NCBI RefSeq assembly: GCF_000337135.1
Contig: NZ_AOIN01000055.1
Location: 4,663 to 46,081, forward strand
Direction of reading: 5' to 3'
DNA from: Natrialba chahannaoensis JCM 10990
Lineage (GTDB): Archaea > Halobacteriota > Halobacteria > Halobacteriales > Natrialbaceae
Length of the DNA stretch: 41,419 bases
Positions 19,231-41,419 of the stretch are shown one piece after another (the first letter of the stretch is position 1; the number at the start of each line of letters is the position of its first letter). Below the pieces are notes generated by a model. The model was given only the letters and a program-made list of their open reading frames with translations, searched no databases and was not told the DNA's origin. The translations under genes were made by a program, and so were the position numbers.

Positions 19231-20028
19231 ATGAACGAGCGAGGCAGTCAATCACTGATGGATCAAGAAACGCTCGACCGGCGCGTCCAGGCCGGTGAAA
19301 CACCGCAGTGGGTCGCCGACCACTGGGACTCCTTTCAGGAGGGGCTGCTCGGCGAACGAAACAACTCGCCGTTTCCCTGCTTCTTCGGCGCGGAATCGGT
19401 CGCCGCGGGCGAGCCGCTGTACACCGCCGTCCCGTCGATGAGCGATGCCAACGCCCTGTTGACCCTGCGCGATCGGGTACTCGAGTACCTCGATGTCTAC
19501 CAGGACCACGCGGGACGCGCGTCGCTCGTCACGTTCTTCAAGCCGCCCGAGGACCCGCTTTCGGAGCGCGAGTATCACGACGCGCTCTGGCACATTCTGC
19601 AGACGCTGCACCTGCACGATCCAGAGCCTTGGCCCGAGGACATTCCGACGGATCCCGACGACAAGCATTGGGAGTTCTGTCTGGGCGGCGAGCCGATGTT
19701 CCCGACCTGTCGGGCACCGTTCTACGACACCCGGAAGAGTCGCTACTGTCCGATCGGCCTCGAGATCACCTTCCAGCCGCGGGCGCTGTTCGAGAATTTG
19801 AACGTTACTGCAGAGTACGAGGCCGGTCAACGCGCCCGCGACGTGATCCAGGACCGTCTCGAAGAGTACGACGGCGTCTGCCCGCATGCTGATCTCGGCG
19901 ACTGGGGCGTCGACGGCGACCGGGAGTGGCCCCAGTACATGCTCTCCTCGGATGAGGAACAAGCGCCCACCGAGTGTCCGATCACCGTCACGCGGGACCA
20001 TCCGAAGCCGGCAGCGAGGTTGTCATGA
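19231..20028 (+). CDS. YqcI/YcgG family protein
   Basis: 265 residues. It matches the YqcI/YcgG family in [40 protein letters not shown] followed by [28 protein letters not shown] and [15 protein letters not shown]. The conserved FPCxFG and CLGGExMFPTC cysteines suggest a redox or metal role, but the activity of the family is not established as far as I know. Its TGA overlaps the next ATG by three bases (ATGA), so it forms an operon with the isochorismatase-like hydrolase. ATG 19258 (MDQETLDRR) is an alternative start. Confidence 0.83.
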
Positions 20029-20609
20029 CCGACGCGGCTACCTCGTCACCCCCAACCGACACAGACCTGGACGACGCTGCACTCGTCCTCGTCGACTTCC
20101 AGACGGGCTTCGACGACTCCGCCTGGGGCACACGAAACAATCCCAACGCTGAGGATCGAGCCGCCGAGTTGCTCACACACTGGCGCGAGACGAAGCGCCC
20201 CGTCGTTCACGTCCGCCACGCTTCAACAGAGGCAGCGTCACCACTTCGGCGCGACCAGCCTGGATTCGCGTTCAAACCCGCCCTCGAACCGCGCGACGAC
20301 GAGCAGACGTTCGCCAAGTCAGTCAACGGCGCGTTCGTCGACACCGCACTCGAGTCCTGGCTGCGCGAGCGCAACATCGAATCGCTTGTCGTCGCCGGAC
20401 TGACGACGGATCACTGCGTCTCGACGACGACGCGGATGGCCGAAAACCGTGGCTTCGATGTCCACCTGGCCGCCGACGCGACCGCGACGTTTGATCGGAC
20501 GTTCGACGGCGAGGAGTTCGACGCGGAGACGATGCACAGAACGGCGCTGGCACAGCTAGATGGTGAGTTCGCGACGGTCGTACGAACGGCGTCGCTGGTC
20601 GACAGCTAA
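20025..20609 (+). CDS. isochorismatase family cysteine hydrolase
   Basis: 194 residues with the isochorismatase-like fold. The catalytic Asp is in [12 protein letters not shown] (about 20-31), the Lys in the FAKSVNGAF segment, and the nucleophile Cys in [20 protein letters not shown]. The Cys-bearing GxxTDxCV motif is that of nicotinamidase/N-carbamoyl hydrolase relatives. The natural substrate is unknown. Start ATG 20025 lies within the stop of the YqcI/YcgG gene (ATGA), implying translational coupling and perhaps a shared detoxification role. Confidence 0.87.
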
Positions 20610-20643
20610 GAACTGGCTCCCGAGAACGGAGAACACACCCCTG

Positions 20644-21420
20644 TCAGCCGAACGAGCCAAGCGACGACTGCAACTCCCGCTCTGTCTCGCCGTCCTCGAG
20701 TTCGTAGCCGACCAGATCACGCATGTCGACCGCGTAGGTCGTCCCACCCTTCTCGACCACGAGAATTCGCCCCTTCACACCGCGAACCGTGCCCGACACG
20801 ATTGTCTCCCGAACCGGCCGGGACTCGAGTACGGGTTCGAATTCGTAGTCGAACTCGAAGCGCTCGATGACCTCGAACTCTGCAAGCACGTCGTTCCAGG
20901 CGTCCTCGTCGACGCTGCTCGCGAGGGCGGCGATCTTCGGGCCGGTACGGACGCGGTCGACGAGCCACTCTGCGATTTCGGCCTCGATTTCGCGGGCGAT
21001 CTTCCCGTTCGAGACGGTGTGGATATGCGCCGCTCGGTCGGCTCCCTGCTCGCGGAGGCGCGTTTCGAGCCGCCAGCTTCGGGTGACGCCAACCTTGAAC
21101 GTATCGGGGGCGAAGGCGGCGATGTAGACCGCGTGCTCCTCGTAGCAGTCCATCTCGTCCTTCAGGCAGGTACCCGTACAGCGGGCACAGACCCAGGTAC
21201 TCGTGTGGAACTCACAGTACGGTGCCGACGCGCGGTCGCAGGCGATGTGGCCGGCCTCGCCGATGGTGCCCGCGCAGTGGCGCTCACCGAGCGCGTAGGT
21301 CAGTTCGTCGCCGGACTCGAGTGGCCGGTGCTCGATGTCGTTGCCGTCAGCGTCGCCGTCTGCGAGGAGGAGAGCCGAACCGCGGCCGCTCGGCTCGTAG
21401 CCGACCACTTGCACGCGCAT
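20644..21420 (-). CDS. DUF2797 domain protein
   Basis: 258 residues. The N-terminal half has three Cys/His groups (HCAGTIGEAGHIACDRA, PYCEFHTSTWVCARCTGTC), consistent with bound zinc. The middle has a GIY-YIG-like core (HAVYIAAFAPDTFKVGVTR followed by LETRLREQGADRA). The C-terminal part (about 190-255) is a beta-rich region (GTVRGVKGRILVVEKGGTTY). This order fits DUF2797, and a nuclease-like activity is suggested by the Y...Y-I...K-V-G...R motif, but I do not know that it has been tested. ATG 21420 gives MRVQVVGYEP; the open frame extends to 21507 without family features. Confidence 0.8.
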   Translation of the reverse strand: MRVQVVGYEPSGRGSALLLADGDADGNDIEHRPLESGDELTYALGERHCAGTIGEAGHIACDRASAPYCEFHTSTWVCARCTGTCLKDEMDCYEEHAVYIAAFAPDTFKVGVTRSWRLETRLREQGADRAAHIHTVSNGKIAREIEAEIAEWLVDRVRTGPKIAALASSVDEDAWNDVLAEFEVIERFEFDYEFEPVLESRPVRETIVSGTVRGVKGRILVVEKGGTTYAVDMRDLVGYELEDGETERELQSSLGSFG

Positions 21421-21570
21421 TCGTTGGTGGTGGGGGCAAATATACTCCTCGCTGTCGTTACGAACGGGCCCGACTCGAGTGGCGCGCGTACTCGAGTTCA
21501 CCGCCAATACAGGTTCGTCTTACCGGTCACCCGGACGAACAATTATGGGCCGTGGGGGAGATGCGGACGT

Positions 21571-21918
21571 ATGGCACTCGATGGAGAACTCGACGCGACA
21601 GTATCGTCGGGCGCGACGGGACCGGATGCCGTCACGCTCGCGTTTACGGTGCGAAATGAGGGCACAAAGACAGAAACGCTGCGGTTTTCGGACGCCTGCA
21701 AGGCAGAGTTCGTCGTTCAGGACGAGGGCCGAGAGGTCTGGCGCTACACGGACGGGCGGATGTTCGCCCAGATGCTGAGTGCCGATGAACTCGATCCGGA
21801 CGAAGAGACGACCTACGAGGCGGAGTGGGAAGAGCCACAGTCGGGTGAATTCACCGTCGTTGCGGAGTTGCAGGCGCGGGGGACGACGTGTGAGGCGCGG
21901 ACACAGCTGACGATGTGA
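21571..21918 (+). CDS. BsuPI-like proteinase-inhibitor domain protein
   Basis: 115 residues with a beta-sandwich pattern typical of the BsuPI (intracellular proteinase inhibitor) domain: VTLAFTVRNEGTKTETLRFS, then AEFVVQDEGREVWRYTDGRM and YEAEWEEPQSGEFTVVAELQ. In Bacillus the founding member inhibits an intracellular serine protease; in archaea the partner is unknown. No signal peptide is seen, so it is cytoplasmic. It is divergent from the DUF2797 gene across a 150-base spacer. Confidence 0.75.
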   Translation: MALDGELDATVSSGATGPDAVTLAFTVRNEGTKTETLRFSDACKAEFVVQDEGREVWRYTDGRMFAQMLSADELDPDEETTYEAEWEEPQSGEFTVVAELQARGTTCEARTQLTM

Positions 21919-22179
21919 GGCTCTTGGGCTAACATTTGAGGGGTGCCGAACTAACGGTTTGAGAGCTCTTGAGCTGCTCGGCTCTTTGTGCGTTGTAGTC
22001 TGAAACGTGGGAACTGTGATCGCTGCCTCGCCATCCGTGAGCGGAACGGACGGGTAGTGGACGTCGAACAGAAGCGAGTGGACAACCGGACTACCAATCC
22101 TAAATATTGATTTTCGATGTCAAACATCTTCTTTCCAATTCCCGAGTCCGAGTTCCCGGTTCGACAGAAACAACGAAGT

Positions 22180-22187
22180 GAATAAAC
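22180..22187 (+). promoter_or_regulatory. TATA-like box of cbiX
   Basis: GAATAAAC lies 24-31 bases upstream of ATG 22211, so a leaderless start at the second of two nearby ATGs (22205 and 22211) is favoured. Confidence 0.45.
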
Positions 22188-22210
22188 CATCCCCCTCCTA
22201 ACGAATGGAC

Positions 22211-23116
22211 ATGCAAGCGCTGGTCATCGCGGCACACGGCTCGCACCTGAATCCGGATGCCTCGACGCCGACGTACGCCCACGCGGACACGATCCGCGAG
22301 ACGGGCGCGTTCGACGAGGTTCGCGAGGCGTTCTGGAAGGAGGAACCGCACTTCCGTGAGGTGATCCGCACACTCGAGTCCGACGAGGTGTTCGTCGTCC
22401 CGCTGTTTATCAGCGAGGGCTACTTCACCGAGCAGGTCATCCCGCGAGAGCTCCGCCTCGGTGGCTGGGAGCCCGACAAGTGGGAGTCAGACGGCACGAG
22501 CGCCTCACAGGTTACCCTCGAGGCTGAGGATGTCGGCAAGACGATTCACTACTGCGGCCCGGTCGGTACGCACGACGCGATGACGGACGTGATCGTCCAG
22601 CGCGCCGAAAGTGTCACCGACGACCCTGACGTGGGCGAGGGCTTCGGCCTCGCGGTGGTCGGTCACGGCACCGAGCGCAACGAGAACTCGGCAAAAGCAA
22701 TCGAGTACCACACCGAACGCATCCGCAAGCGAGATCGCTTCGACGAGGTCAAGGCGGTGTTCATGGACGAGGAACCGGAGGTGGACGACGTGACGGAGTT
22801 CTTCGAGAGCGACGACATCGTTGTTGTGCCCCTCTTTATCGCCGACGGCTACCACACGCAGGAGGACATCCCCGAGGACATGGGACTCACCGAGGATTAC
22901 CGTCTCGGCTGGGACGTCCCCGCCGAGGTCGACGGCCACCGCATCTGGTACGCCGGCGCAGTCGGCACCGAGGGCCTGATGGCCGACGTCCTTCTGGAGC
23001 GCGCCGCCGACGCGGGTGCAGAACTCGGCGACGCGATCGACCGCGTTCGTCAAATCACGAGCCCAGCGAACGGTGCTGACGGTGATGCCAGTCGACACAG
23101 CCAGGCGGGTGACTAA
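22211..23116 (+). CDS. cbiX: sirohydrochlorin cobaltochelatase CbiX, long form
   Basis: 301 residues with two CbiX halves. Each has a metal-binding His motif, LVIAAHGSHLNP in the first and LAVVGHGTERNENS in the second, and each has the product-site block VVPLFISEGYFTEQVIP or VVPLFIADGYHTQEDIP. It inserts Co2+ (or Ni/Fe) into sirohydrochlorin in early cobalamin or tetrapyrrole synthesis. The double-domain form contrasts with the small archaeal CbiX(S). It is followed one base later by a DR2241-type Fe-S protein, a frequent partner. ATG 22211 fits the TATA spacing; 22205 is the in-frame alternative. Confidence 0.88.
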   Translation: MQALVIAAHGSHLNPDASTPTYAHADTIRETGAFDEVREAFWKEEPHFREVIRTLESDEVFVVPLFISEGYFTEQVIPRELRLGGWEPDKWESDGTSASQVTLEAEDVGKTIHYCGPVGTHDAMTDVIVQRAESVTDDPDVGEGFGLAVVGHGTERNENSAKAIEYHTERIRKRDRFDEVKAVFMDEEPEVDDVTEFFESDDIVVVPLFIADGYHTQEDIPEDMGLTEDYRLGWDVPAEVDGHRIWYAGAVGTEGLMADVLLERAADAGAELGDAIDRVRQITSPANGADGDASRHSQAGD

Positions 23117-23117
23117 G

Positions 23118-24374
23118 ATGGGGATGGATGACGAGTCGACGAGCGCCACACAGCGGTTACTGAGTACGCTTACGGCTGCCGAAGAGAGCGAGACAACAGG
23201 TCAGGACCCCACCGTTGCCTTCGACGGTCTCCGAGTCACACGAGACGCAGACGATGAATTCACGCTCACGATCGACGCCGCCGACATCGCACAATCCAGT
23301 CTCAACGCGGGTGCACTTGAGTCCCTGCTCGCTGGCGACGAACTCGAGAGTGTCGCGGCGTACGTAACGAACTGGCACTACTGGCAGGAGACGGTTGGTG
23401 GCGAGGGAACTGCCCGGCGGGCGTTCCTGCGCTGGTGTGAGCATGCGTCGCTTTCGGTTTCGGCGGGGACTCAAGGTGGGAATGGCGATGAACGCGGAGC
23501 CGAACAGGGACAGAAACAGGACCGAACGCTTTCCGTCCCGGACCGTTACGCTGCCCTGCAGGATGGCATCGATCGCGAGTGGGGGCAACTCTGCATCACT
23601 GCTCGCTTCGCGGATGTCGACCATTCTGACGGCGAACGCGTCTACGACCTCTGGCACGTCGCAGATGCTGGTACGGACATTGCCGATCTCACGGTGTACG
23701 ACGACCCGGGTGAGGCACGCGAGATCGCTACCTACGACGAGGACGGCCGGTACCGGCCGCTGAAGACTGCGCCGACGCTCGAGACCGGCTGGGCATTTAC
23801 CGGGCTCTCGGGCGAGGAGCTCGTCGACGCCGTCGGCTTCTTCTACCCGGCGACGATTGCCAACTGGCACCGCGAGCGCGAGGGCAACCTGGACATCGAC
23901 CACTGGACCGAGACCGCAGACCGCCAGAGTGGGATCTACGAGGTCGTCTCCGAACTCCCCCGCGAGGCCGTCGACTGGATGGCCGAAGCCTGCTGTGTCG
24001 ACTCCCAGTGTCTCCGCCGGCGTGAGTGGGAGTACGAGGACGGCGACGAACTCGACGCCAATGGCGGTGACGGGCCGTTCCCCTGCCGGGAGCCGTGCTC
24101 GCTCGTTGTTGCCGCCGCGCGCAAGTGGGCTATCGCCGAATCCGAATCCGAGCGGACGTACGAACTGGAACTGACACCGACCGAGCGCAACCAACTCGAG
24201 GAACTAATCGACGCGGTTGCGGACGACAGAACGGACGAGATTCGTGAGGCAGACGTCAACGATGGGGCGAACCGCTACCGCGCGCGATACCTGCGGGCGA
24301 AACGGTTCTCGGACGAGGGTGGGCTTGCGATGCGAGAGCAGTCTGAGACCGAGTCCGAAGCTGAATCCAACTGA
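23118..24374 (+). CDS. DR2241 family protein with Fe-S-binding region
   Basis: 418 residues. The N-terminal region (about 60-190) has NWHYWQETVGGEGTARRAFL and WGQLCITARF. The C-terminal part carries WMAEACCVDSQCLRRREWEY followed by FPCREPCSLVVAAARKW. The cluster C-C-x4-C...C-x3-C fits the 4Fe-4S domain described for DR2241-type proteins. These are usually encoded beside cbiX, and here the ATG follows the cbiX stop by one base, so a role in metal insertion or tetrapyrrole handling is likely. A hydrophilic tail follows. The precise function is not known to me. Confidence 0.82.
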   Translation: MGMDDESTSATQRLLSTLTAAEESETTGQDPTVAFDGLRVTRDADDEFTLTIDAADIAQSSLNAGALESLLAGDELESVAAYVTNWHYWQETVGGEGTARRAFLRWCEHASLSVSAGTQGGNGDERGAEQGQKQDRTLSVPDRYAALQDGIDREWGQLCITARFADVDHSDGERVYDLWHVADAGTDIADLTVYDDPGEAREIATYDEDGRYRPLKTAPTLETGWAFTGLSGEELVDAVGFFYPATIANWHREREGNLDIDHWTETADRQSGIYEVVSELPREAVDWMAEACCVDSQCLRRREWEYEDGDELDANGGDGPFPCREPCSLVVAAARKWAIAESESERTYELELTPTERNQLEELIDAVADDRTDEIREADVNDGANRYRARYLRAKRFSDEGGLAMREQSETESEAESN

Positions 24375-24513
24375 CGAAGCAGGAGCCGCGACGCGCGATC
24401 CCCGTTCTGTTGCTGACTTTGTTTGATCCTACTGGTTCTGTTTGAGCACAGTATAACGAGATTTTCCGCTTTGTCAGGGGACACCTGCTGACCGTGGTCT
24501 GAGGTGATGAACT

Positions 24514-24735
24514 TCAATGTCGGTATCTTCGCCACTCTGCACTACACTCTTGTGAGCAAAAGCGGGCACCATCTGCTTGAGTATCAGTGCGCTCAAACTC
24601 ATCCCCACACCATTCGCACACGAATGTGAGCGTCTGAACCAGACTCTCGTCGTGCACTTGCACATGGTGTTGTGGCATCGAAGCTTCGGAATCGAACCAG
24701 TCTTCGTTGCAAGATGGACACTCTATTTCACTCAT
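24514..24735 (-). CDS. small two-zinc-finger protein
   Basis: 73 residues. The first finger is a C2H2 type with ECPSCNEDWFDSEASMPQHH, then VQVHDE. The second is a treble-clef-like CxxC...CxxxC motif, FVCEWCGDEF...ARFCSQECSAEW. The same pair often forms the N-terminus of longer haloarchaeal HNH-type proteins, so this may be a regulator or a shortened relative; that is recollection. ATG 24735 lies 8 bases inside the end of the winged-helix gene, so the two are translated together. It belongs to the accessory module with the divergent RuvC/Cas7-like operon. Confidence 0.65.
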   Translation of the reverse strand: MSEIECPSCNEDWFDSEASMPQHHVQVHDESLVQTLTFVCEWCGDEFERTDTQADGARFCSQECSAEWRRYRH

Positions 24736-24976
24736 CTTCCTCCTCCCGAGGGTCTTCGACCAGTTCGTAGAGCCCACCTCGATTCAGTTGCTCCACCCAT
24801 CCGGCGTTCTTCAGGTTCCGGAGTGCGTACTCCACCTGCCCTTTGTCCAACTCAGAGTGTTCTCGCAAGTAGAGAGGGTTCACACGCCCCCACGGGTCGC
24901 CGGAGTCACGTCCCTCTTTGAACTGCTTGAGGACGTCTTCCTCCCGATCATTCGGTTCGTAGTTTTCGTTGACCAT
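24728..24976 (-). CDS. winged-helix DNA-binding protein
   Basis: 82 residues. The pattern REEDVLKQFKEGRDSGDPWG, then VNPLYLREHSELDKGQVEYA and LRNLKNAGWVEQLNRGGLYELVED gives helix-turn-helix and wing, as in small MarR/phage-type regulators of haloarchaea. It overlaps the zinc-finger gene by 8 bases. Its upstream region (24977-25170) is shared with the divergent four-gene operon and holds an inverted repeat TTAGCA-15-TGCTAA, so auto- and cross-regulation is plausible. Confidence 0.75.
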   Translation of the reverse strand: MVNENYEPNDREEDVLKQFKEGRDSGDPWGRVNPLYLREHSELDKGQVEYALRNLKNAGWVEQLNRGGLYELVEDPREEEDE

Positions 24977-25037
24977 CGTGTGTTCTGCCGTTCTACTTCA
25001 CAGGACATAATTCTCAGCCATACGCCTAATGATTTTC

Positions 25038-25064
25038 TTAGCATACGGTCGAGCATTTTGCTAA
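25038..25064. promoter_or_regulatory. inverted repeat TTAGCA-N15-TGCTAA
   Basis: Six-base arms 15 bases apart in the AT-rich stretch between the winged-helix gene and the divergent operon. A candidate operator for the winged-helix protein; the match is short, so it could be chance. Confidence 0.4.
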
Positions 25065-25100
25065 GCATAAATTCTAAGTAGTACCCGGTTGTAGGTGTAG

Positions 25101-25166
25101 TTGAGAACACGAGGCACGTCGCAGAAGGCGACCGGTGTTGAAGGCACCGACGCCTCGGGTTCTCGG
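25101..25166 (+). ncRNA. three-way-junction structured element
   Basis: Long stem: 25103-25115 pairs with 25152-25164 (12 pairs plus one A-G mismatch; two G-U pairs can extend it). Inside are two adjacent 5-bp hairpins: GTCGC/GCGAC (118-122 with 128-132, loop AGAAG) and CGGTG/CACCG (133-137 with 145-149, loop TTGAAGG). Both loops carry GAAG. The fold ends 2 bases before the first ATG of the four-gene operon. It may be the 5' leader of that mRNA or a separate small RNA; expression is inferred, the pairing is seen. The strand is assumed from the operon. Confidence 0.55.
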
Positions 25167-25168
25167 AA

Positions 25169-25354
25169 ATGGCCAGAGAACCTATGTCAATGAAGACGTC
25201 CGCCGGACTTCAGAATTCCGGCAGCGACGCGAACGAAGACGATCGCACTACCAACAAGAGGCGTGTCCGATGCACTTGCTGGGACGTCGAAGCAACGTGC
25301 CGCCACAATCACCACCGTGACGGGTACCGTTACAGCAAGGAGGGGTCACGATGA
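25169..25354 (+). CDS. small Cys/His-rich protein, first gene of operon
   Basis: 61 residues. The second half contains RCTCWDVEATCRHNHHRDGY, a Cys-x-Cys-x7-Cys-x-His-x-His-His cluster suited to bind zinc. The N-terminal half is polar and probably disordered. ATG 25169 directly follows the structured element; ATGs at 25184 and 25190 are alternatives. Its TGA overlaps the next ATG by three bases (ATGA). The family is not recognised. Confidence 0.5.
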   Translation: MAREPMSMKTSAGLQNSGSDANEDDRTTNKRRVRCTCWDVEATCRHNHHRDGYRYSKEGSR

Positions 25355-25665
25355 GTCTCCCCGAACCGACGGACGTGATCGTACCTCATGAGGACGCCTC
25401 ATACTCGACGTTCGACTTTCTCACGCAGGTGATGGAGGGTGCGTATCCCCACGGTGTCGCTCTCGAGTACCAGGATTTGGTTCTGATCAGCCAAGTCGAC
25501 GCCGCCCAAACGACGAATATCTGGCACGTCCGCGCGGAGGACGGGTCGATAATTGAGTCACTGAATCTCGACGCCTTCCGGACAGCCACCGTACTCGAGG
25601 AGACGCTCGACAAGACTGTGGCCTACGTTCCGTCTGACCGCAAAGAGTGGGTGAACAGCCTATGA
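25351..25665 (+). CDS. hypothetical protein, second gene of operon
   Basis: 104 residues, acidic, with a mixed alpha/beta pattern (FDFLTQVMEGAYPHGVALEY, then LVLISQVDAAQTTNIWHVRA and FRTATVLEETLDKTVAYV). No catalytic motif, signal or membrane segment is visible and I do not recognise the family. It overlaps the first gene by 4 bases and the RuvC gene by 4 bases, so it is part of the same translationally coupled operon and a likely partner of the RuvC/Cas7-like products. Confidence 0.6.
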   Translation: MSLPEPTDVIVPHEDASYSTFDFLTQVMEGAYPHGVALEYQDLVLISQVDAAQTTNIWHVRAEDGSIIESLNLDAFRTATVLEETLDKTVAYVPSDRKEWVNSL

Positions 25666-26321
25666 GCAGCACACCACTCCCTACGACGACTTCCCGAGAC
25701 CGAACACTGGAACCCACGCCGGTCGGTGTGGATGTCGGGGTGAAGAACCTCGTCGCTGCGGCCCCGACAAACGGCGACTTGGAGGCATCGCTCGTGATCG
25801 AGGGCGATCACGTTCGAAAGCGCCACGAAACCCTCGTCGAGGCGATGCAAGCACTCCAAGGCGCGAAATTCGACACCACAGACGGGCAGACTCAGCTGTT
25901 CGCGGCACTCTGGCACCAGATCCGACCGCAGGTCTACGATGCCGCTGTCCGCGCCGTTCGCTACGCCCAGAAGTTTCCCGCGCCGACGCTCGTGCTCGAG
26001 GATCTATCGTTCTGCGAGGCGACACTGTGGGAACGACGCACGGTCGACGATGTCGGGACGTGGTTGCTCCCGGCCCTCCAGCAAGCGGTTGCACTGAAAG
26101 CACAGGAGGTCAGAATTCCCGTGACGTACGTCAATCCGAAGTACACGACCCAGCAGTGCCACGTCTGTGGCGATCTTGGTCGCCCCGAGAACGACACGCT
26201 GGAGTGTACAACTGAGGATTGCCCCGTCGGCACCGTGTGCCGCGACCGAAGTGCCGCCGTGAGTATCGCCCAGCGAGTTGACCGCGAAGGGATGACCGAG
26301 GTGATCGGTCATCATGATTGA
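25662..26321 (+). CDS. RuvC-only TnpB-like nuclease
   Basis: 219 residues made up almost wholly of a TnpB-type RuvC domain. Asp24 is in PVGVDVGVKNLVAAA, Glu113 in LVLEDLSF, and the third Asp195 in CRDRSAAVSIAQRV. The zinc ribbon lies between the last two, with YVNPKYTTQQCHVCG and ECTTEDC. All three catalytic acids are present and there is no frameshift. The large N-terminal wedge/REC part (about 150-200 residues in TnpB) is missing and replaced by a 20-residue tail. It sits between overlapping genes in an operon with a Cas7/RAMP-like product, not inside an IS. A domesticated nuclease supplied with targeting by partners is the likely reading. Confidence 0.75.
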   Translation: MSSTPLPTTTSRDRTLEPTPVGVDVGVKNLVAAAPTNGDLEASLVIEGDHVRKRHETLVEAMQALQGAKFDTTDGQTQLFAALWHQIRPQVYDAAVRAVRYAQKFPAPTLVLEDLSFCEATLWERRTVDDVGTWLLPALQQAVALKAQEVRIPVTYVNPKYTTQQCHVCGDLGRPENDTLECTTEDCPVGTVCRDRSAAVSIAQRVDREGMTEVIGHHD

Positions 26322-26691
26322 GGACATCGACCGCGACGTGTTCATCCGGGTTCAGACCGATCTACTTGTGGTCGGCGACAGCATCATGACCGATCGACAT
26401 CACGCCAGCAACGGTAATTACGAGGACGACGACCCACAGAACCAGATCGGCGGGATCATTCCGGCGTTCCCGCTCTCGGGGTGGCTTCGCCACGGGATGG
26501 AAGAGACCGTTCAGGAGTACGGCGGGACGGCCTGTCACCCTGGCGAGGCCAACGCGAATTTCAGGAAAGACGGCATCCTCCGGGTCGGCAGTCACTCGAA
26601 ATACGGCTTCGGAGATCTTCGAGTGAAGTCGGTCGAACCGCGGTCAGACCAGTGTAAGAACTCAGAGAAGAACAGCGAAACAACGGAGTGA
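26314..26691 (+). CDS. small Cas7/RAMP-like protein
   Basis: 125 residues. The N-terminal strand FIRVQTDLLVVGDSIMTDRH, the segment GGIIPAFPLSGWLRHGMEET, and the glycine-rich end VGSHSKYGFGDLRVKSV follow the order seen in Cas7/Csf2-type RAMP proteins (IPxSSLRGxLR helix and G-x-G-F-G loop). It is far shorter than Cas7 (about 250-330 residues); the middle between LRHGMEE and the Gly loop is nearly absent, so it may be a minimal form or an in-frame deletion. ATG 26314 overlaps the RuvC gene by 8 bases. The HRAMP comparison is from memory of published haloarchaeal Cas5/Cas7-like loci. The C-terminus is Asn/Glu/Lys-rich. Confidence 0.5.
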   Translation: MIEDIDRDVFIRVQTDLLVVGDSIMTDRHHASNGNYEDDDPQNQIGGIIPAFPLSGWLRHGMEETVQEYGGTACHPGEANANFRKDGILRVGSHSKYGFGDLRVKSVEPRSDQCKNSEKNSETTE

Positions 26692-26778
26692 GATATCCGA
26701 ACGATGACGGGCGAATCGGCGACTAAACATCACTCGGTTCCATGAATAAAGAAATCGTATTCACAACAACTGGCATGC

Positions 26779-27471
26779 TTACCAGTACAGCAAGAACAAT
26801 GCAACCGCGACACCAGCAAAAACGATTCCAACACCAATCGTCGCAACGGGCCCACCGACTGCAGAGGTGACCGCGACGGCCAGCGCGAGCGCGAAGATTC
26901 CCAGACCAATTACGGCGAGTACCCCAAGATCCGTTTTAATCCCGAGTTGCGTCGTTATCTCCTCGACGAGCGTCGGCTGTTCGTCGTCCGCTGAGCGTGC
27001 TGGTGCAGCGAGTGACTCGTCAACGTCAACCCCTTTCGGCGGTGGTGTCACCGTCACCGTGATCGAAACCGACTCCGACCCGTAGCCGGTGAGTAACTCG
27101 AGTTCCCCGCAGACTGGCTGGTCGAGTCCGTCGGCGGTAATGTCGATGGGAACCGGCGTTACGGCGTCGGGTTCGATGTAATAGTTGGGTGTCCGAAGCG
27201 AGGCGACGTGTGCGATGTCGCCGCTGAGTCGGCAGTGGACGTGTGCTGGCGAGCCCTGCCCGTGGAGTTCGACGACGAACGAGGAGTTGGTCTCGATTGC
27301 GTTACGTTCGGGTGAGAGGGCGTCCTCCTGTTTGCGGTCGACGTGGACCGGCAGCACCGTTATCGTTCCGGTGGGTACACCACTGTCGCGGGCTTGCGAG
27401 CCGGCCGTTCCCTGCGTGTTACTGGCCAACGACTCGTTCTCGTACGACGGTGTGGATTCGGATCCAGTCAC
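26779..27471 (-). CDS. DUF7524-like protein with C-terminal membrane anchor
   Basis: 230 residues. A soluble beta-rich domain (TITVLPVHVDRKQEDALSPE to about residue 145, with HVHCRLSGDIAHVASL and SITVTVTPPPKGV) is followed by two hydrophobic helices, LGVLAVIGLGIFALALAVAV and a final segment containing GVGIVFAGVAVALFLLYW. It therefore sits on the membrane with both helices at the end. The pattern fits haloarchaeal DUF7524 as I recall it; function unknown. The first about 38 residues are disordered, and a GTG start near residue 39 is possible. It is 86 bases downstream of the Trm112-like gene in the same orientation. Confidence 0.6.
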   Translation of the reverse strand: MTGSESTPSYENESLASNTQGTAGSQARDSGVPTGTITVLPVHVDRKQEDALSPERNAIETNSSFVVELHGQGSPAHVHCRLSGDIAHVASLRTPNYYIEPDAVTPVPIDITADGLDQPVCGELELLTGYGSESVSITVTVTPPPKGVDVDESLAAPARSADDEQPTLVEEITTQLGIKTDLGVLAVIGLGIFALALAVAVTSAVGGPVATIGVGIVFAGVAVALFLLYW

Positions 27472-27557
27472 GGTACAGATACAGGTAGTGGTCTGGTGCC
27501 AGTTACAAGTAGTTTCCGTCGTTTGACACGGTCGTGCCTACTTGCGTTCCGTCGAAC

Positions 27558-27788
27558 TTACGCGGGCGACTCCTCTTGCATGTCTGGCGGGAGCAGGTTC
27601 GGAATGCCGTCCTCGATCGGGTAGCGCTCACCACACTCGGAGCAGACGAGCGTTCCGTCGACGACTTCGGCTGCGTCCTCGCCGTCGTCTGAATCGCCAT
27701 CGACACTCTCATCGTACGTCGCATCTTCGAGTTCCAGTTCGTGCTTGTCGAGCGGGCAGCGCAGGATATCAAGCAACGACTCCTTCAT
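27558..27788 (-). CDS. Trm112-like zinc-ribbon protein
   Basis: 76 residues. MKESLLDILRCPLDKHELEL is the N-terminal half of the Trm112/YcaR fold, with the pair CPLDKHELEL and LVCSECGERYPIEDGIPNLL supplying the zinc site (CP...CxxC). An acidic, Asp-rich insert of about 25 residues separates them, as common in halophiles. Trm112 proteins activate several RNA and protein methyltransferases. A Trm9-like methyltransferase occurs at 39942-40688, but partnership is only a guess. ATG 27788 is preferred over the upstream ATG 27815. Confidence 0.8.
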   Translation of the reverse strand: MKESLLDILRCPLDKHELELEDATYDESVDGDSDDGEDAAEVVDGTLVCSECGERYPIEDGIPNLLPPDMQEESPA

Positions 27789-27860
27789 ACTTGGAAGGCA
27801 TATCGCAGACAGCAAAAGGCTTCGGGAACCGTCGGCGTAGCTCGGTCACTACCAGTGAAC

Positions 27861-27868
27861 ATAAATAC
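27861..27868 (+). promoter_or_regulatory. TATA box of the kinase gene
   Basis: ATAAATAC is followed by a predicted start near 27888-27891. This coincides with ATG 27891, which opens an 8-codon frame (MHSSAVLR) whose TGA ends in the Shine-Dalgarno of the kinase gene. Confidence 0.4.
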
Positions 27869-27910
27869 GACACTGTGCATCACAGTACCAATGCATTCGA
27901 GCGCCGTTTT

Positions 27911-27917
27911 GAGGTGA
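27911..27917 (+). promoter_or_regulatory. Shine-Dalgarno of the kinase gene
   Basis: GAGGTGA lies 9 bases before ATG 27927 and fixes the kinase start; its last three bases are the stop of the 8-codon upstream frame. Confidence 0.5.
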
Positions 27918-27926
27918 CTTCGACAG

Positions 27927-29669
27927 ATGCCCTCTTCCGCTCTCGTAGATAGCGTCGCCGAACTTGGTCGTCTCGCATCCGAACTCGACGCACTTGATTC
28001 AGTGACAGAGGTGTACACCCACGCCCTTCGTGCAGCCGACCGCGTACTCGAGTTCGACACAGCCATCATCTGCACGGTCGAAGACGGCGTCTTCGAGCCG
28101 CAAGCGAGCTACGCAACGCGGTTGTTCCCTGCGACACCACTCGCTGCTGACGCCGGTATCGCCGGCAAAACCCACCGTGAGAACGAAACCCACGTCATCG
28201 GCAATCTGACGACACACACCGATGCCAAACCAACAAGCGACGCCTTTCGATCTGTGCTTTCGATCCCACTCGAGGACGGCGGCGTCGTTCAGTTTCATGC
28301 AACCGAGCCGGACGCCTTTTCGGAGGGTGACCGCCACCTCGGCGAGTTGTTCGTCGCAACGGTGACGAGCGCCCGAAATCGAGTCAGCTACGAGAGTGCA
28401 CTCGAGACGGAGCGCGATCAGTTCGCGGCGCTGTTCGAGAACGTTCCCGATGCGGCACTCCAGTACCATCTCGAGGATGGGGTGCACGTGGTCGACGCGG
28501 TCAACTCGACGTTTATCCGGGTGTTCGGGTACGACGCCGAGGCTGTGGTCGGCGAACCGCTAACGGAACTCCTCGAACCGGTAGTGAGCAAACCGACGGA
28601 CGCGGCGGCTGCTCCAGCGGGAACGCCACCACATCACGAGCCCGCTGGCGCTGGGACACCACCGGCGGGCTACAGGCAGACGCAACTCGTCGAAACCGAA
28701 CTGTCCGAACGTGCCGATGTCGAAGTCGTTCGCGAAACCGCGGACGGACCGCGCCCGCTCTTGCTCCGGAATATTCCGGTCGCAACCAACGACGGGACGA
28801 CCCGCGGCTATCTGATCTACACCGACCTGACCGAACTCAAACTCCGGGAGCGCGAACTTGAACGTAAGAACGAGCGTCTCGATCAGTTCGCGAGTATCGT
28901 CAGCCACGACCTTCGAAACCCTCTCAACGTCGCTGAGGGCTATCTCGACATTGCACTCGAGGATGCCTCGAGTGACATCCAGCCTGCACTCGAGGAGATC
29001 GAAGACGCACACAACCGCATGGCGCGATTGATCGAGGACGTACTGACGATGGCCAAGGGTGAGGCAGTCACCAATCCCGAACCAGTTGACCTCGACACAG
29101 TCGCAACGGCTGGCTGGGACAACGTCGAAACCGCCGCGGCGTCGCTCGAGGCGACGAGTCAGTTGCGAATCAAGGCCGACCGGACGCGGTTGTTGCGACT
29201 GTTCGAGAACCTCTTTCGAAACGCGGTCGAACACGCCGGCCACGACGCTACGGTTCGGGTCACTGGTCTGGCGGGGGGATTCGCAGTCGAAGACGATGGA
29301 CCTGGAATCCCGGCCGAGCGCCACGAGGACATTTTCGAGTCCGGTCACACCGGTGCGGCCGAGAACACCGGGCTCGGATTGGCAATCGTCGAGCAGATCG
29401 CGACCGAACATGGCTGGACGGTCGAGGTTTCGTCGACTGACAGCGACGGCAAAAACGGAGAAGACACCGGTGCACGGTTCGAGTTTACCGACTGTCGTCT
29501 CCAGGAAGACGACGCCGAGACGGGTCACGAATTCGAACCCCCGTTCGAGCATGAACACCAGTCCGGCGAGGGTGCGAGCGCGGGCGCGGGCGTGGATGAA
29601 CAGGATGATGGGTCCGAACACGAATTCGACTGGGAACTCACCAGACACCAACTTGAGGGATGGCGATGA
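27927..29669 (+). CDS. sensor histidine kinase (GAF-PAS-HisKA-HATPase)
   Basis: 580 residues, cytoplasmic (no transmembrane segment). A GAF-like domain occupies about 15-160 (VLEFDTAIICTVEDGVFEP ... SVLSIPLEDGGVVQFHATE), followed by a PAS domain about 165-300. The HisKA helix has FASIVSHDLRNPLNVAEGYL with His327 as phosphoacceptor. The HATPase has the N box LFENLFRNAVEHAG, G1 VEDDGPGIP and G2 NTGLGLAIVEQIA. The last 70 residues form an acidic, disordered tail. It overlaps the next gene by 4 bases (ATGA), and no response regulator is adjacent, so the CHAT-like product may be the output or partner. The Shine-Dalgarno fixes the start. Confidence 0.88.
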   Translation: MPSSALVDSVAELGRLASELDALDSVTEVYTHALRAADRVLEFDTAIICTVEDGVFEPQASYATRLFPATPLAADAGIAGKTHRENETHVIGNLTTHTDAKPTSDAFRSVLSIPLEDGGVVQFHATEPDAFSEGDRHLGELFVATVTSARNRVSYESALETERDQFAALFENVPDAALQYHLEDGVHVVDAVNSTFIRVFGYDAEAVVGEPLTELLEPVVSKPTDAAAAPAGTPPHHEPAGAGTPPAGYRQTQLVETELSERADVEVVRETADGPRPLLLRNIPVATNDGTTRGYLIYTDLTELKLRERELERKNERLDQFASIVSHDLRNPLNVAEGYLDIALEDASSDIQPALEEIEDAHNRMARLIEDVLTMAKGEAVTNPEPVDLDTVATAGWDNVETAAASLEATSQLRIKADRTRLLRLFENLFRNAVEHAGHDATVRVTGLAGGFAVEDDGPGIPAERHEDIFESGHTGAAENTGLGLAIVEQIATEHGWTVEVSSTDSDGKNGEDTGARFEFTDCRLQEDDAETGHEFEPPFEHEHQSGEGASAGAGVDEQDDGSEHEFDWELTRHQLEGWR

Positions 29670-32122
29670 CCGACACGACTGCCACCGATCCCGTGACGAT
29701 TACGGTGCGCGGAACAACGTTGCAGGCCCAGGACATCGCCGGCAACACGAACTCGTTCGGACTGGTTGGCTGGGATCGTCTTGAGAATCAACACACGTTC
29801 GACGAACCGATCGATGCAGCCATCACCGGCCGTGTCTCCGAGATCCGGTATGATCTGCTGAACATGGTCGATATCAGGCGCGTTGACGACACAGCACCTG
29901 GCTCAGACACTGCACTCGACGACAGAGTCGGCGTCGAAAACGGGGACAGGGGCACAGACACAGGCACAGACCCGAGCACGGACAGATCCGTGGACGCGGA
30001 CGCGAACGCGAACGCGAACACCAACACGACAACGAACGCGGACACAGACACCACCAATACACGCATCTCCGTTGAGGCAGGCGACCAGGAGTTTTCCCTG
30101 CGCAACGGTGCGTACGTCTGCCGGTTCGACTCGAACCTCTTCGTTCGGCTGCGATTCGACGCACCAGCGAGCGTCAAAAACCGATGCCGCGGGCCACTGA
30201 CGATCTCGTTCGAACACCCCACGCGAGTCACGTTCGGATTCAAATCACCTGTCGACTATCCGCGCGAAAAAATTAAAGTCAGACCAACACCGGACGGCAT
30301 CGCCACCGCCCTCTCACACCTCTCTGTGTCGATCGAAACCACGACCGAAGACCGGGCCCACCGAAACTACCGGGGCTACCCGCCGCTGCTCGAGATCGAC
30401 CCCGCGGTGACGGATACGCACGTCCCACCGGCAGTTCGCGAGGAAACACCCGACACAGAGCTCGAACTTGTCGTTCCACCCGACCGCTCGGCGCTCTTCA
30501 TCGCAGCACCACTCGCGTACTACCTCAGTGCTCGCGTTCGAACGACAGCCCAAGCCACACTCGACGAGGACGAAAGCGCACCGCTGTTGCGCGCACCGTC
30601 GCTCGACCTTCATCACGAATTCGAGGCCGGCTCCGCGTTCGCACCGTCCGTCCGCTCGCTTCTGCGGCGCACGTTCTTCCTCGACTTGCTCGTCTCGTGG
30701 ATCGAGCCGACGGAACTGACGGTACTCGAGTACGATGCGCTGACGGCGTCGGGGATCGATCTCTCTGGGTGTCCCGGGATGTCGATTGCGGAGCGAGTGC
30801 AGACGTATCTCTCGTTCCCGGACCAGCCGATCGACGAGATCCTCCCGCGCTGGCCCTACCGGATGACGGTGTCACCGACGACCGCCCATGTCGGCGTGTT
30901 GCCACACCTGCTCTACGATATGGCGGCGATCGAGACGCCAGTGGACTCGAGTGGGAGTGGTGATTCCGCGCCGTCGGCCGAGTCGCCTGGAGTGGCCGGG
31001 AACTTACAGTCGGTGCCAGCGGTGGCGGATGTTCTCGAGCAGGACCTGGAGAGTAGCCAGAGTGAGAGAGGGCCACTTGATGATCGGCTCGCGGTGCGAC
31101 AGCGAATTCACGGTGTGCTTGCGGACCCGGAGCGTGGTGGTGAGGATGACGAGTGTGCTGTGGATGGGCCTCGACTTTCGCTTTCGTCTGTATCGGCGTC
31201 GTCATCTTCATCTTCATCTGCGTCTGCGTTTGGGTCATCATCTGAGTCTCAGTCTCACCAATCCACAGCGAACTGCTCGCCGTTCGTCGCTCATCCGGAG
31301 GCCTACGAGAATCGGCTCTCGGATCTCGAACAGCAGTCCGACGAGCGACGCGTCGTCGTCATCTTCGCGACCGAGCACATCCCTGAATCCGCGCGCGAGC
31401 ACATCGTCGATACGTACCGTCGTCGGTCGGACGCGGTCTCTCCGCGCGTCGAACGGGTCGACGATCCAACGCGGGTCGAACTCGCGGACGTGTTTGCGGC
31501 CGGGGCTGATTTCCTGCACTACATCGGGGACTGCGACGACGACGGTGTCGGATTCGCGTGTACGGACGGCGTCCTGTCGTCGTCGGCGCTGCCAACCAAC
31601 GAGGTCGGGTTGTTCCAACTCGACGCAACGAACGCAGTTGGCGTCGCGCGGAAACTGATCGAGACCGGGAGCATCGCCGGCGTGGCGGGATACCAGACGG
31701 CGGCGTCCGAGCGCGACATAACGGTGACGACGACCGTCGGCGAACTGCTCCTCTACGGGCAGAGCCTCGCAACGGCCCACACCTGTGCGACCGTACAGAC
31801 GAATAGCTCGGGTGGTGTGGTCGTCGGTGACGGGACGCACCGCTTCGTCGCGAAGTGGCAGCCATCGGAGATCCAGTCGCTACAGGAGACCGATGGCGGT
31901 GCGATTCGGGGCCTTTCCGTCCCGTTCCCGGTCGATCCCGTCGGGGCACACTGGCGCGGCAGCCGACCCGAACACAAGCGACTGATTCCAGCGACGATCA
32001 CACACGAGGTCGCCCCAGCGGAACTCAACGAGTACATCACGAACACGGTTCGGCCAATCTACTACAACGGCGAGTTCTACTGGCCAGAGGAGCAAAAACA
32101 GTTGTTGTATCCGATGTCGTAG
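29666..32122 (+). CDS. CHAT-like domain protein, catalytic residues apparently lost
   Basis: 818 residues. The N-terminal about 600 residues are haloarchaeal and I recognise no domain. Repetitive Asn/Thr/Asp and Ser linkers lie at about 90-140 (ANANANTNTTTN-type) and 510-535. Near residue 555 VVVIFATEHIPESAREHIVD begins a caspase-like region. DFLHYIGDCDDDGVGFACTD (about 612-631) corresponds to the CHAT His-Gly block and VGLFQLDATNAVGVARKL to the Cys block. Asp stands where CHAT has His and Thr where it has the nucleophile Cys, so it looks inactive as a protease. Its start overlaps the kinase stop (ATGA). The CHAT relation is by eye and moderate. Confidence 0.5.
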   Translation: MTDTTATDPVTITVRGTTLQAQDIAGNTNSFGLVGWDRLENQHTFDEPIDAAITGRVSEIRYDLLNMVDIRRVDDTAPGSDTALDDRVGVENGDRGTDTGTDPSTDRSVDADANANANTNTTTNADTDTTNTRISVEAGDQEFSLRNGAYVCRFDSNLFVRLRFDAPASVKNRCRGPLTISFEHPTRVTFGFKSPVDYPREKIKVRPTPDGIATALSHLSVSIETTTEDRAHRNYRGYPPLLEIDPAVTDTHVPPAVREETPDTELELVVPPDRSALFIAAPLAYYLSARVRTTAQATLDEDESAPLLRAPSLDLHHEFEAGSAFAPSVRSLLRRTFFLDLLVSWIEPTELTVLEYDALTASGIDLSGCPGMSIAERVQTYLSFPDQPIDEILPRWPYRMTVSPTTAHVGVLPHLLYDMAAIETPVDSSGSGDSAPSAESPGVAGNLQSVPAVADVLEQDLESSQSERGPLDDRLAVRQRIHGVLADPERGGEDDECAVDGPRLSLSSVSASSSSSSSASAFGSSSESQSHQSTANCSPFVAHPEAYENRLSDLEQQSDERRVVVIFATEHIPESAREHIVDTYRRRSDAVSPRVERVDDPTRVELADVFAAGADFLHYIGDCDDDGVGFACTDGVLSSSALPTNEVGLFQLDATNAVGVARKLIETGSIAGVAGYQTAASERDITVTTTVGELLLYGQSLATAHTCATVQTNSSGGVVVGDGTHRFVAKWQPSEIQSLQETDGGAIRGLSVPFPVDPVGAHWRGSRPEHKRLIPATITHEVAPAELNEYITNTVRPIYYNGEFYWPEEQKQLLYPMS

Positions 32123-41305: not shown

Positions 41306-41419
41306 GAGCATGGGACACCGGTCACTACACACGCGGCCAAGCCAAGGGTTACTACCGCCAACTGAACCGTAACGTCGTCTTACGAACTCACTCTAAAACA
41401 CGTCTGATGAGGCTCTATC

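Follow-up and report, generated by a model that had tools for sequence, protein, structure and literature searches.

The locus analysed here raises the question of what an inverted repeat of 66 bases, located at positions 25101-25166 just 5' of a plus-strand operon of Natrialba chahannaoensis JCM 10990, does in front of genes for RuvC- and Cas7-like proteins. The window, by which we mean the whole stretch of DNA analysed, comprises 41,419 nucleotides, and an earlier sequence-only reading of it had proposed three roles for the repeat, namely a leader RNA, a guide-like or scaffold RNA for these proteins, or a DNA cruciform bound by a winged-helix regulator. Our analysis indicates that the element is probably one copy of a portable cis-acting 5' leader that controls the expression of the first gene. 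This reading is based on the computed fold, covariation, position and alternative pairing of the element, on bases conserved inside the first ORF and on the varied gene contexts in which its relatives occur.

The junction of the window and its operon

Folding of the 66-mer, both as RNA and as DNA, returned the three-way junction P1[P2,P3] that had been described before, a long stem enclosing two 5-bp hairpins with GAAG in both loops. The minimum free energy of the RNA was -35.7 kcal/mol, compared with -20.5 ± 2.7 for shuffled sequences (z -5.71), and that of the DNA -23.2 compared with -10.3 ± 2.0 (z -6.48), with none of 200 shuffles as good in either case. P1 is composed of an outer helix (25103-25108/25159-25164), one A.G mismatch and an inner helix (25110-25115/25152-25157); its 5' strand (25103-25115, plus strand, as are all parts of the element) reads GAGAAC (25103-25108), the mismatched A109 and CGAGGC (25110-25115), and its 3' strand, P1', spans 25152-25164. 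The P2 hairpin (25118-25132) pairs 25118-25122 with 25128-25132 around the loop AGAAG (25123-25127), and P3 (25133-25149) pairs 25133-25137 with 25145-25149 around TTGAAGG. By pattern match, AGAAG or RGAAR on the 3' side of P2 is seen again in 58 of 85 relatives, and sequence comparison showed that the P3 stem and loop are common to the loci L090 and L092. The possibility of a kink-turn in P2 was set aside, as there is no 3-nt bulge.

The repeat does end two bases before an ATG (25169), as had been noted, but the start of the first ORF is more likely the ATG at 25184, judging from homology: the 56-aa product read from there (25184-25354, plus strand, MSMKTSAGLQ...) is identical to its L037 relative at 41 of 53 positions in BLASTP. 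Since homology moves the start to 25184, the element is longer than 66 bases and includes P1'' (GAGAACC, 25176-25182). This strand repeats the 5' strand of P1 and was recognised from a 110-nt fold and from family-wide pairing. In the window, GGTTCTC (25158-25164) can pair with this copy in an alternative hairpin located just before ATG 25184, and this hairpin belongs to the minimum-energy structure of the 110-nt fold. A TATA-like stretch, TTCTAAGTA (25072-25080, plus strand), lies about 23-31 nt 5' of the window RNA, as indicated by its sequence and by a family-wide A+T peak. Further 5', at 25021-25070, there are two similar T-rich stretches, CTTAGCAT and CTAAGCAT, perhaps a candidate operator for the divergent winged-helix-like protein encoded at 24728-24976 on the minus strand, which has an 84% identical relative in L039.

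The operon that follows represents a decayed HRAMP locus whose RuvC is TnpB-like, HRAMP being an array-less CRISPR derivative. The first ORF is succeeded on the plus strand by a 104-aa protein (25351-25665), which tblastn found conserved beside the RuvC and for which a Pfam search gave no family above cut-off, and by a mini-RuvC of 219 aa (25662-26321), which according to profile matches is the C-terminal half of a TnpB/Cas12f-like nuclease. Its match to the TnpB model covers only positions 190-389 of 389 (61.7 bits, cut-off 100); the N-terminal half is absent, and the protein is not a full-length TnpB RNA-guided nuclease. The next ORF (26314-26691, plus strand, 125 aa) had been called Cas7-like, a name that holds for its start only, as split tblastn matches assign its end to the Cas5-like protein; because this ORF joins a Cas7-like start to a Cas5-like end, the window copy is regarded as decayed. 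Intact relatives have the order small first ORF, 104-aa protein, RuvC, Cas7-like protein (287 aa), conserved protein of 260 aa and Cas5-like RAMP (328 aa). Near the window end, at 41323-41403, a second small HRAMP Cas7-like remnant was observed (E 2.6e-4), and the loci L043-L050 carry a second TnpB-like RuvC family, 35-38% identical to the window RuvC, with the RNA in only one of these eight (L048).

Structure models of the Cas7-like and Cas5-like proteins (mean pLDDT 71.9 and 70.8) support the first of these names and, less clearly, the second. The predicted Cas7-like protein of L036, of which the window copy is a truncated version, matches type VII Cas7 (Foldseek 1.2e-6) and the type IV-A effector chains (VIA Z 9.2, rmsd 5.4 over 195 residues), and the Cas5-like model has a RAMP fold, with Cas6 as its best match (1.3e-5) and a weaker match to a Cmr chain (1.4e-3). 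A PDB sequence search with the Cas7-like profile returned nothing relevant. No array-like direct repeats of at least 23 nt within 120 bp were found in L036, L081, L137 or the window at 20000-32000. As far as HRAMP is described in the available portions of PMC8730458 and PMC12669027, the gene set agrees with it in having Cas7-like and Cas5/Cas6-like proteins together with a conserved protein, an adjoining nuclease and no array found nearby. In those portions the HRAMP nucleases are most often HNH and PD-(D/E)xK, whereas the nuclease here is a TnpB-derived mini-RuvC. An HRAMP leader RNA was not found in the portions searched of the literature, including PMC8730458, PMC12669027, PMC10134880, PMC2864571 and PMC7247131, though the founding paper of 2019 may mention the repeat.

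A structured RNA family within one order

Eighty loci were gathered from relatives of the window RuvC and Cas7-like protein, and many of them display the same architecture with other helix sequences: P1 around P2 and P3, a spacer whose last bases repeat the 5' strand of P1, and an ATG, usually 11-22 nt 3' of the junction. Two covariance models were built, R1 from 12 sequences and R2 from 11, which together at E up to 0.13 gave matches in 46 of 60 HRAMP loci. In five further loci (L102, L103, L106, L119 and L134), the RNA was recognised by descriptor or eye only, and neither model nor eye found it in nine of the 60, one of which (L087) is cut by a contig end. Of 25 named loci in another set, which overlaps the first in part, 17 have a match at E <= 0.05. 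A class with a short P2 aligned too poorly for a third model. The window copy itself is divergent, scoring 7.6 bits with R1 with filters off, and was missed by default R1 and R2 searches; its proposed membership in the family rests on the architecture, the AGAAG loop, the P3 shared with L090 and L092, P1'' and the homologous first ORF.

Because descriptor scans give many chance three-way junctions in GC-rich DNA, the counts that follow are based on the covariance models. Among 392 genomes of the order, R2 was found in 163 and R1 in 89, together in 203, at a threshold of E <= 0.01 per genome that is expected to give a few false matches among the 392. The HRAMP Cas7-like protein occurs in 97 of the 392, of which 74 are among the RNA-positive genomes, and 129 of the 203 are without it; such counts of genomes and loci are not independent events, since the members are related by descent. 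When 196 genomes were drawn across the phylum, all 12 positives (E <= 0.001) fell within the order of the window. Searches against Rfam 15 returned only SRP RNA and two tRNAs for the whole window at the gathering score, and at E up to 10 neither the window element nor its L137 relative gave a credible match.

Compensatory changes in homologous loci, on which the sequence-only reading had made its proposal depend, were present. In an alignment of 62 R2 matches to the model (A10), which leans towards that model, 94.5% of cells pair, many of them as G-U, and 21 of 25 pairs are changed on both sides; the covariation score is 0.433, compared with 0.208 ± 0.009 for shuffled alignments and at most 0.099 for slid partners. 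An alignment made from sequence only (A8) has seven of 25 pairs covarying, a number that none of 500 shuffles reached. A third (A5) agrees in cells and score, and is weaker in the pair count, with 3 of 22 pairs and 170 of 500 shuffles as high. These changes keep the helices, as is characteristic of a structured RNA family and not of a chance palindrome.

Promoter, start codon and coding sequence

The position of the RNA relative to promoter and gene was surveyed in 85 usable RNAs of 89 compiled. The A+T content is highest between -33 and -28, counted from the 5' end of the RNA, and reaches 0.94 at -30. In archaea, the TATA box sits at that distance from the transcription start; transcription is therefore implied to start at the 5' end of the RNA, and a 5'-terminal RNA should have no room for a guide on that side. 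The RNA keeps a constant position between the promoter and the first ORF, as a cis-acting leader should.

A second property of such leaders, two pairings that exclude each other and of which one extends to the start codon, was also observed. P1' can pair with the last ten bases ahead of the ATG over a mean of 5.92 bp, compared with 4.18 in permuted sets (maximum 4.49 in 200; the window row was excluded), and the helix with P1'' has at least 5 bp in 72 of the 85 RNAs and fewer in 13. In L089 and L097, P1' and P1'' have changed together and the 5' arm of P1 is unchanged. According to computed energies, the junction is more stable than the alternative in 66 of the 72 RNAs, by a mean of 4.25 kcal/mol (s.d. 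3.34), and the two lie at most 4 kcal/mol apart in 39 of the 72. The strand exchange thus appears, from these energies, to be biased but reachable, and the alternative state may be rare, because the junction is favoured so often and by so much.

The preference for the junction would also fit a passive stabiliser or translation enhancer, in which a very stable fold acts as a 5' clamp against decay without any switching. Such a clamp, however, needs neither the P1'' repeat, nor covarying P1 and P1'', nor the conserved bases in the coding sequence described below, and we consider it very unlikely. Leaders of comparable design are known: purine riboswitches are cis-regulatory three-way-junction leaders with strand exchange at P1. 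As in these, P1 of the haloarchaeal leader closes two hairpins and its 3' strand has a second partner near the gene start, a likeness in general architecture. Unlike them, it has no Rfam match, is not associated with metabolic genes, continues into the coding sequence, and is common to unrelated defence-like and mobile genes of archaea.

The extension into the coding sequence is suggested because unrelated proteins share nucleotides at a fixed distance from the AUG. The first ORFs are varied and encode small cysteine-rich proteins, SWIM proteins, a CxxC family of about 150-200 aa (clade B), a short protein ahead of an IS200-type transposase and others. A motif [GRQ][LQV][EQ], which was noticed first and then tested on the same data, nevertheless occurs in residues 6-13 of 45 of 88 first ORFs, compared with 2.1 expected (maximum 7 in 300 shuffles); it stands at codon 8 in 43 of the 45, and all 45 have A or T at the end of codon 9. 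In a set of 35 first ORFs whose bodies are unrelated, 31 retain A+29, and C+36 and G+37 are retained in 30 each. The window carries the motif as GGACTTCAG at 25205-25213 (plus strand) within its first ORF, and codons 8-10 of unrelated first ORFs were seen to be GGACTTCAG- or GGTCAAGAA-like. A search for a pairing partner of the codon 8-10 motif found none; pairing of loop L2 (GAAGU) with the motif (ACUUC) was rejected, as it suits no class but A and breaks down where the motif reads CAAGAA.

Gene contexts and the proposed mechanism

The guide or scaffold role would require that the junction be excised from the leader and form the bound RNA component of the HRAMP Cas7/Cas6-like proteins, of the mini-RuvC or of both. 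The association with HRAMP, in 74 of the 97 Cas7-positive genomes (Fisher p 1.3e-8, kinship ignored), and the resemblance of the Cas5-like model to Cas6 speak for it, as does the presence of the RNA before mini-RuvC genes without cas genes in L040, L042 and L048; a less clear case of this kind is L033. On its 3' side, the RNA is followed by P1'', the AUG and coding sequence. The 129 RNA-positive genomes without HRAMP Cas7, in which the RNA stands before unrelated genes, weaken this proposal of the sequence-only reading, as do the implied lack of room for a guide on the 5' side, the lack of array-like repeats in the four stretches, the restriction of the RuvC to half of the TnpB model and the fixed coupling of the RNA to the AUG and coding bases; a processed guide or scaffold is therefore unlikely. 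A comparison can be made with the omega-RNAs of TnpB and IscB, the latter of which lies upstream of the nuclease gene. A structured RNA beside an RuvC-type nuclease gene is common to both cases, but the leader appears to have no room for a guide, the RuvC has no N-terminal half, and the leader is found also with no RuvC nearby.

Outside these contexts, tandem units of RNA plus gene, on one strand and 1-3 kb apart, were found in three genomes (G214, G176 and G183; loci L171-L175), and 16 tandem units listed from these loci show the TATA-like peak as a group. Several of the units encode SWIM proteins, and a gene for a beta-CASP metallo-beta-lactamase (606 aa, L174) was observed 3' of the units. 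The neighbourhood of a beta-CASP nuclease gene would suit control at the level of transcription, with the nascent RNA acting on polymerase or termination, by processive antitermination or attenuation, and with the early coding bases as part of the signal; the RNA stands at the implied 5' end of the operon, and the conserved bases reach +37. Yet antitermination would gain little where tandem RNAs precede short units that each have a TATA-like stretch, and the alternative pairing ends at the AUG, which makes transcriptional control quite unlikely.

The RNA is also carried by plasmids. On pNRC200 of Halobacterium salinarum NRC-1, a degraded HRAMP is accompanied by an RNA copy (80.3 bits by R1) that has a change in P2 and whose fold is only a little better than that of shuffled sequences (z -1.43); a matching stretch is present on pHS3 of H. 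salinarum strain R1, and pHSAL2 of H. salinarum 91-R6 has an HRAMP operon. In eight of the 17 records from plasmids, the stretch homologous to the query starts within 7 bases of the RNA 5' end, from which it follows that sequences upstream were exchanged or have diverged there. Such a border would also fit a DNA element, that is, an operator, a cruciform or a recombination site between exchangeable modules, and the DNA fold of the window element is likewise significant. Against this, the hairpin loops are conserved, many pairs are G-U, and orientation and distance to promoter and AUG are constant behind unrelated upstream regions. These features point to RNA, the cruciform with its winged-helix regulator is not needed to explain them, and we regard a DNA element as highly improbable.

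Implied transcription start, covariation, the alternative hairpin at the AUG and the early coding bases all favour the remaining proposal, a leader RNA. According to the cis-acting leader reading, the element would stand right at the beginning of many haloarchaeal transcription units. P1' would leave the P1 5' strand and pair with P1'', which ends at the AUG. This exchange would be biased by a bound factor, either a protein or a ligand, or by a polymerase or ribosome moving through, with the result that the start codon is exposed or masked, and opening or stabilising of the junction would set the translation of the first gene. We infer that transcription yields the element in this form, that translation is governed by the exchange and that there is a common factor or signal. 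More tentatively, it is possible, although rather doubtful, that HRAMP, mini-RuvC and mobile-element operons share one riboregulator, in which a common factor or signal would switch translation by P1/P1'' exchange with the help of the coding bases; that signal would perhaps be an infection cue.

To our knowledge, natural regulatory leader RNAs have been described only in small number for archaea. The leader RNA described here is widespread in one order, is common to genes that otherwise have nothing shared, and marks CRISPR-derived systems that have no array. Whether one control signal is common to the defence-like and mobile genes of haloarchaea thereby becomes directly testable, including in the model species Halobacterium salinarum. 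Protein-binding structured leaders do exist in Halobacteria, with an S15 candidate in the available text of PMC7247131; unlike archaeal ribosomal-protein leaders, the present one has a gene context that is not ribosomal and no Rfam 15 match.

Further copies were seen in viral contigs and near a transposase gene. Six viral contigs contain the exact class A core, and in two (L221 and L222) there is a full R1 match of about 90 bits; L221 has a second, weaker copy at 724-794. At L186:5521-7453, the RNA precedes a 65-aa ORF, after which come an IS200-type Y1 transposase and an ORF of 426 aa that appears TnpB-like by eye.
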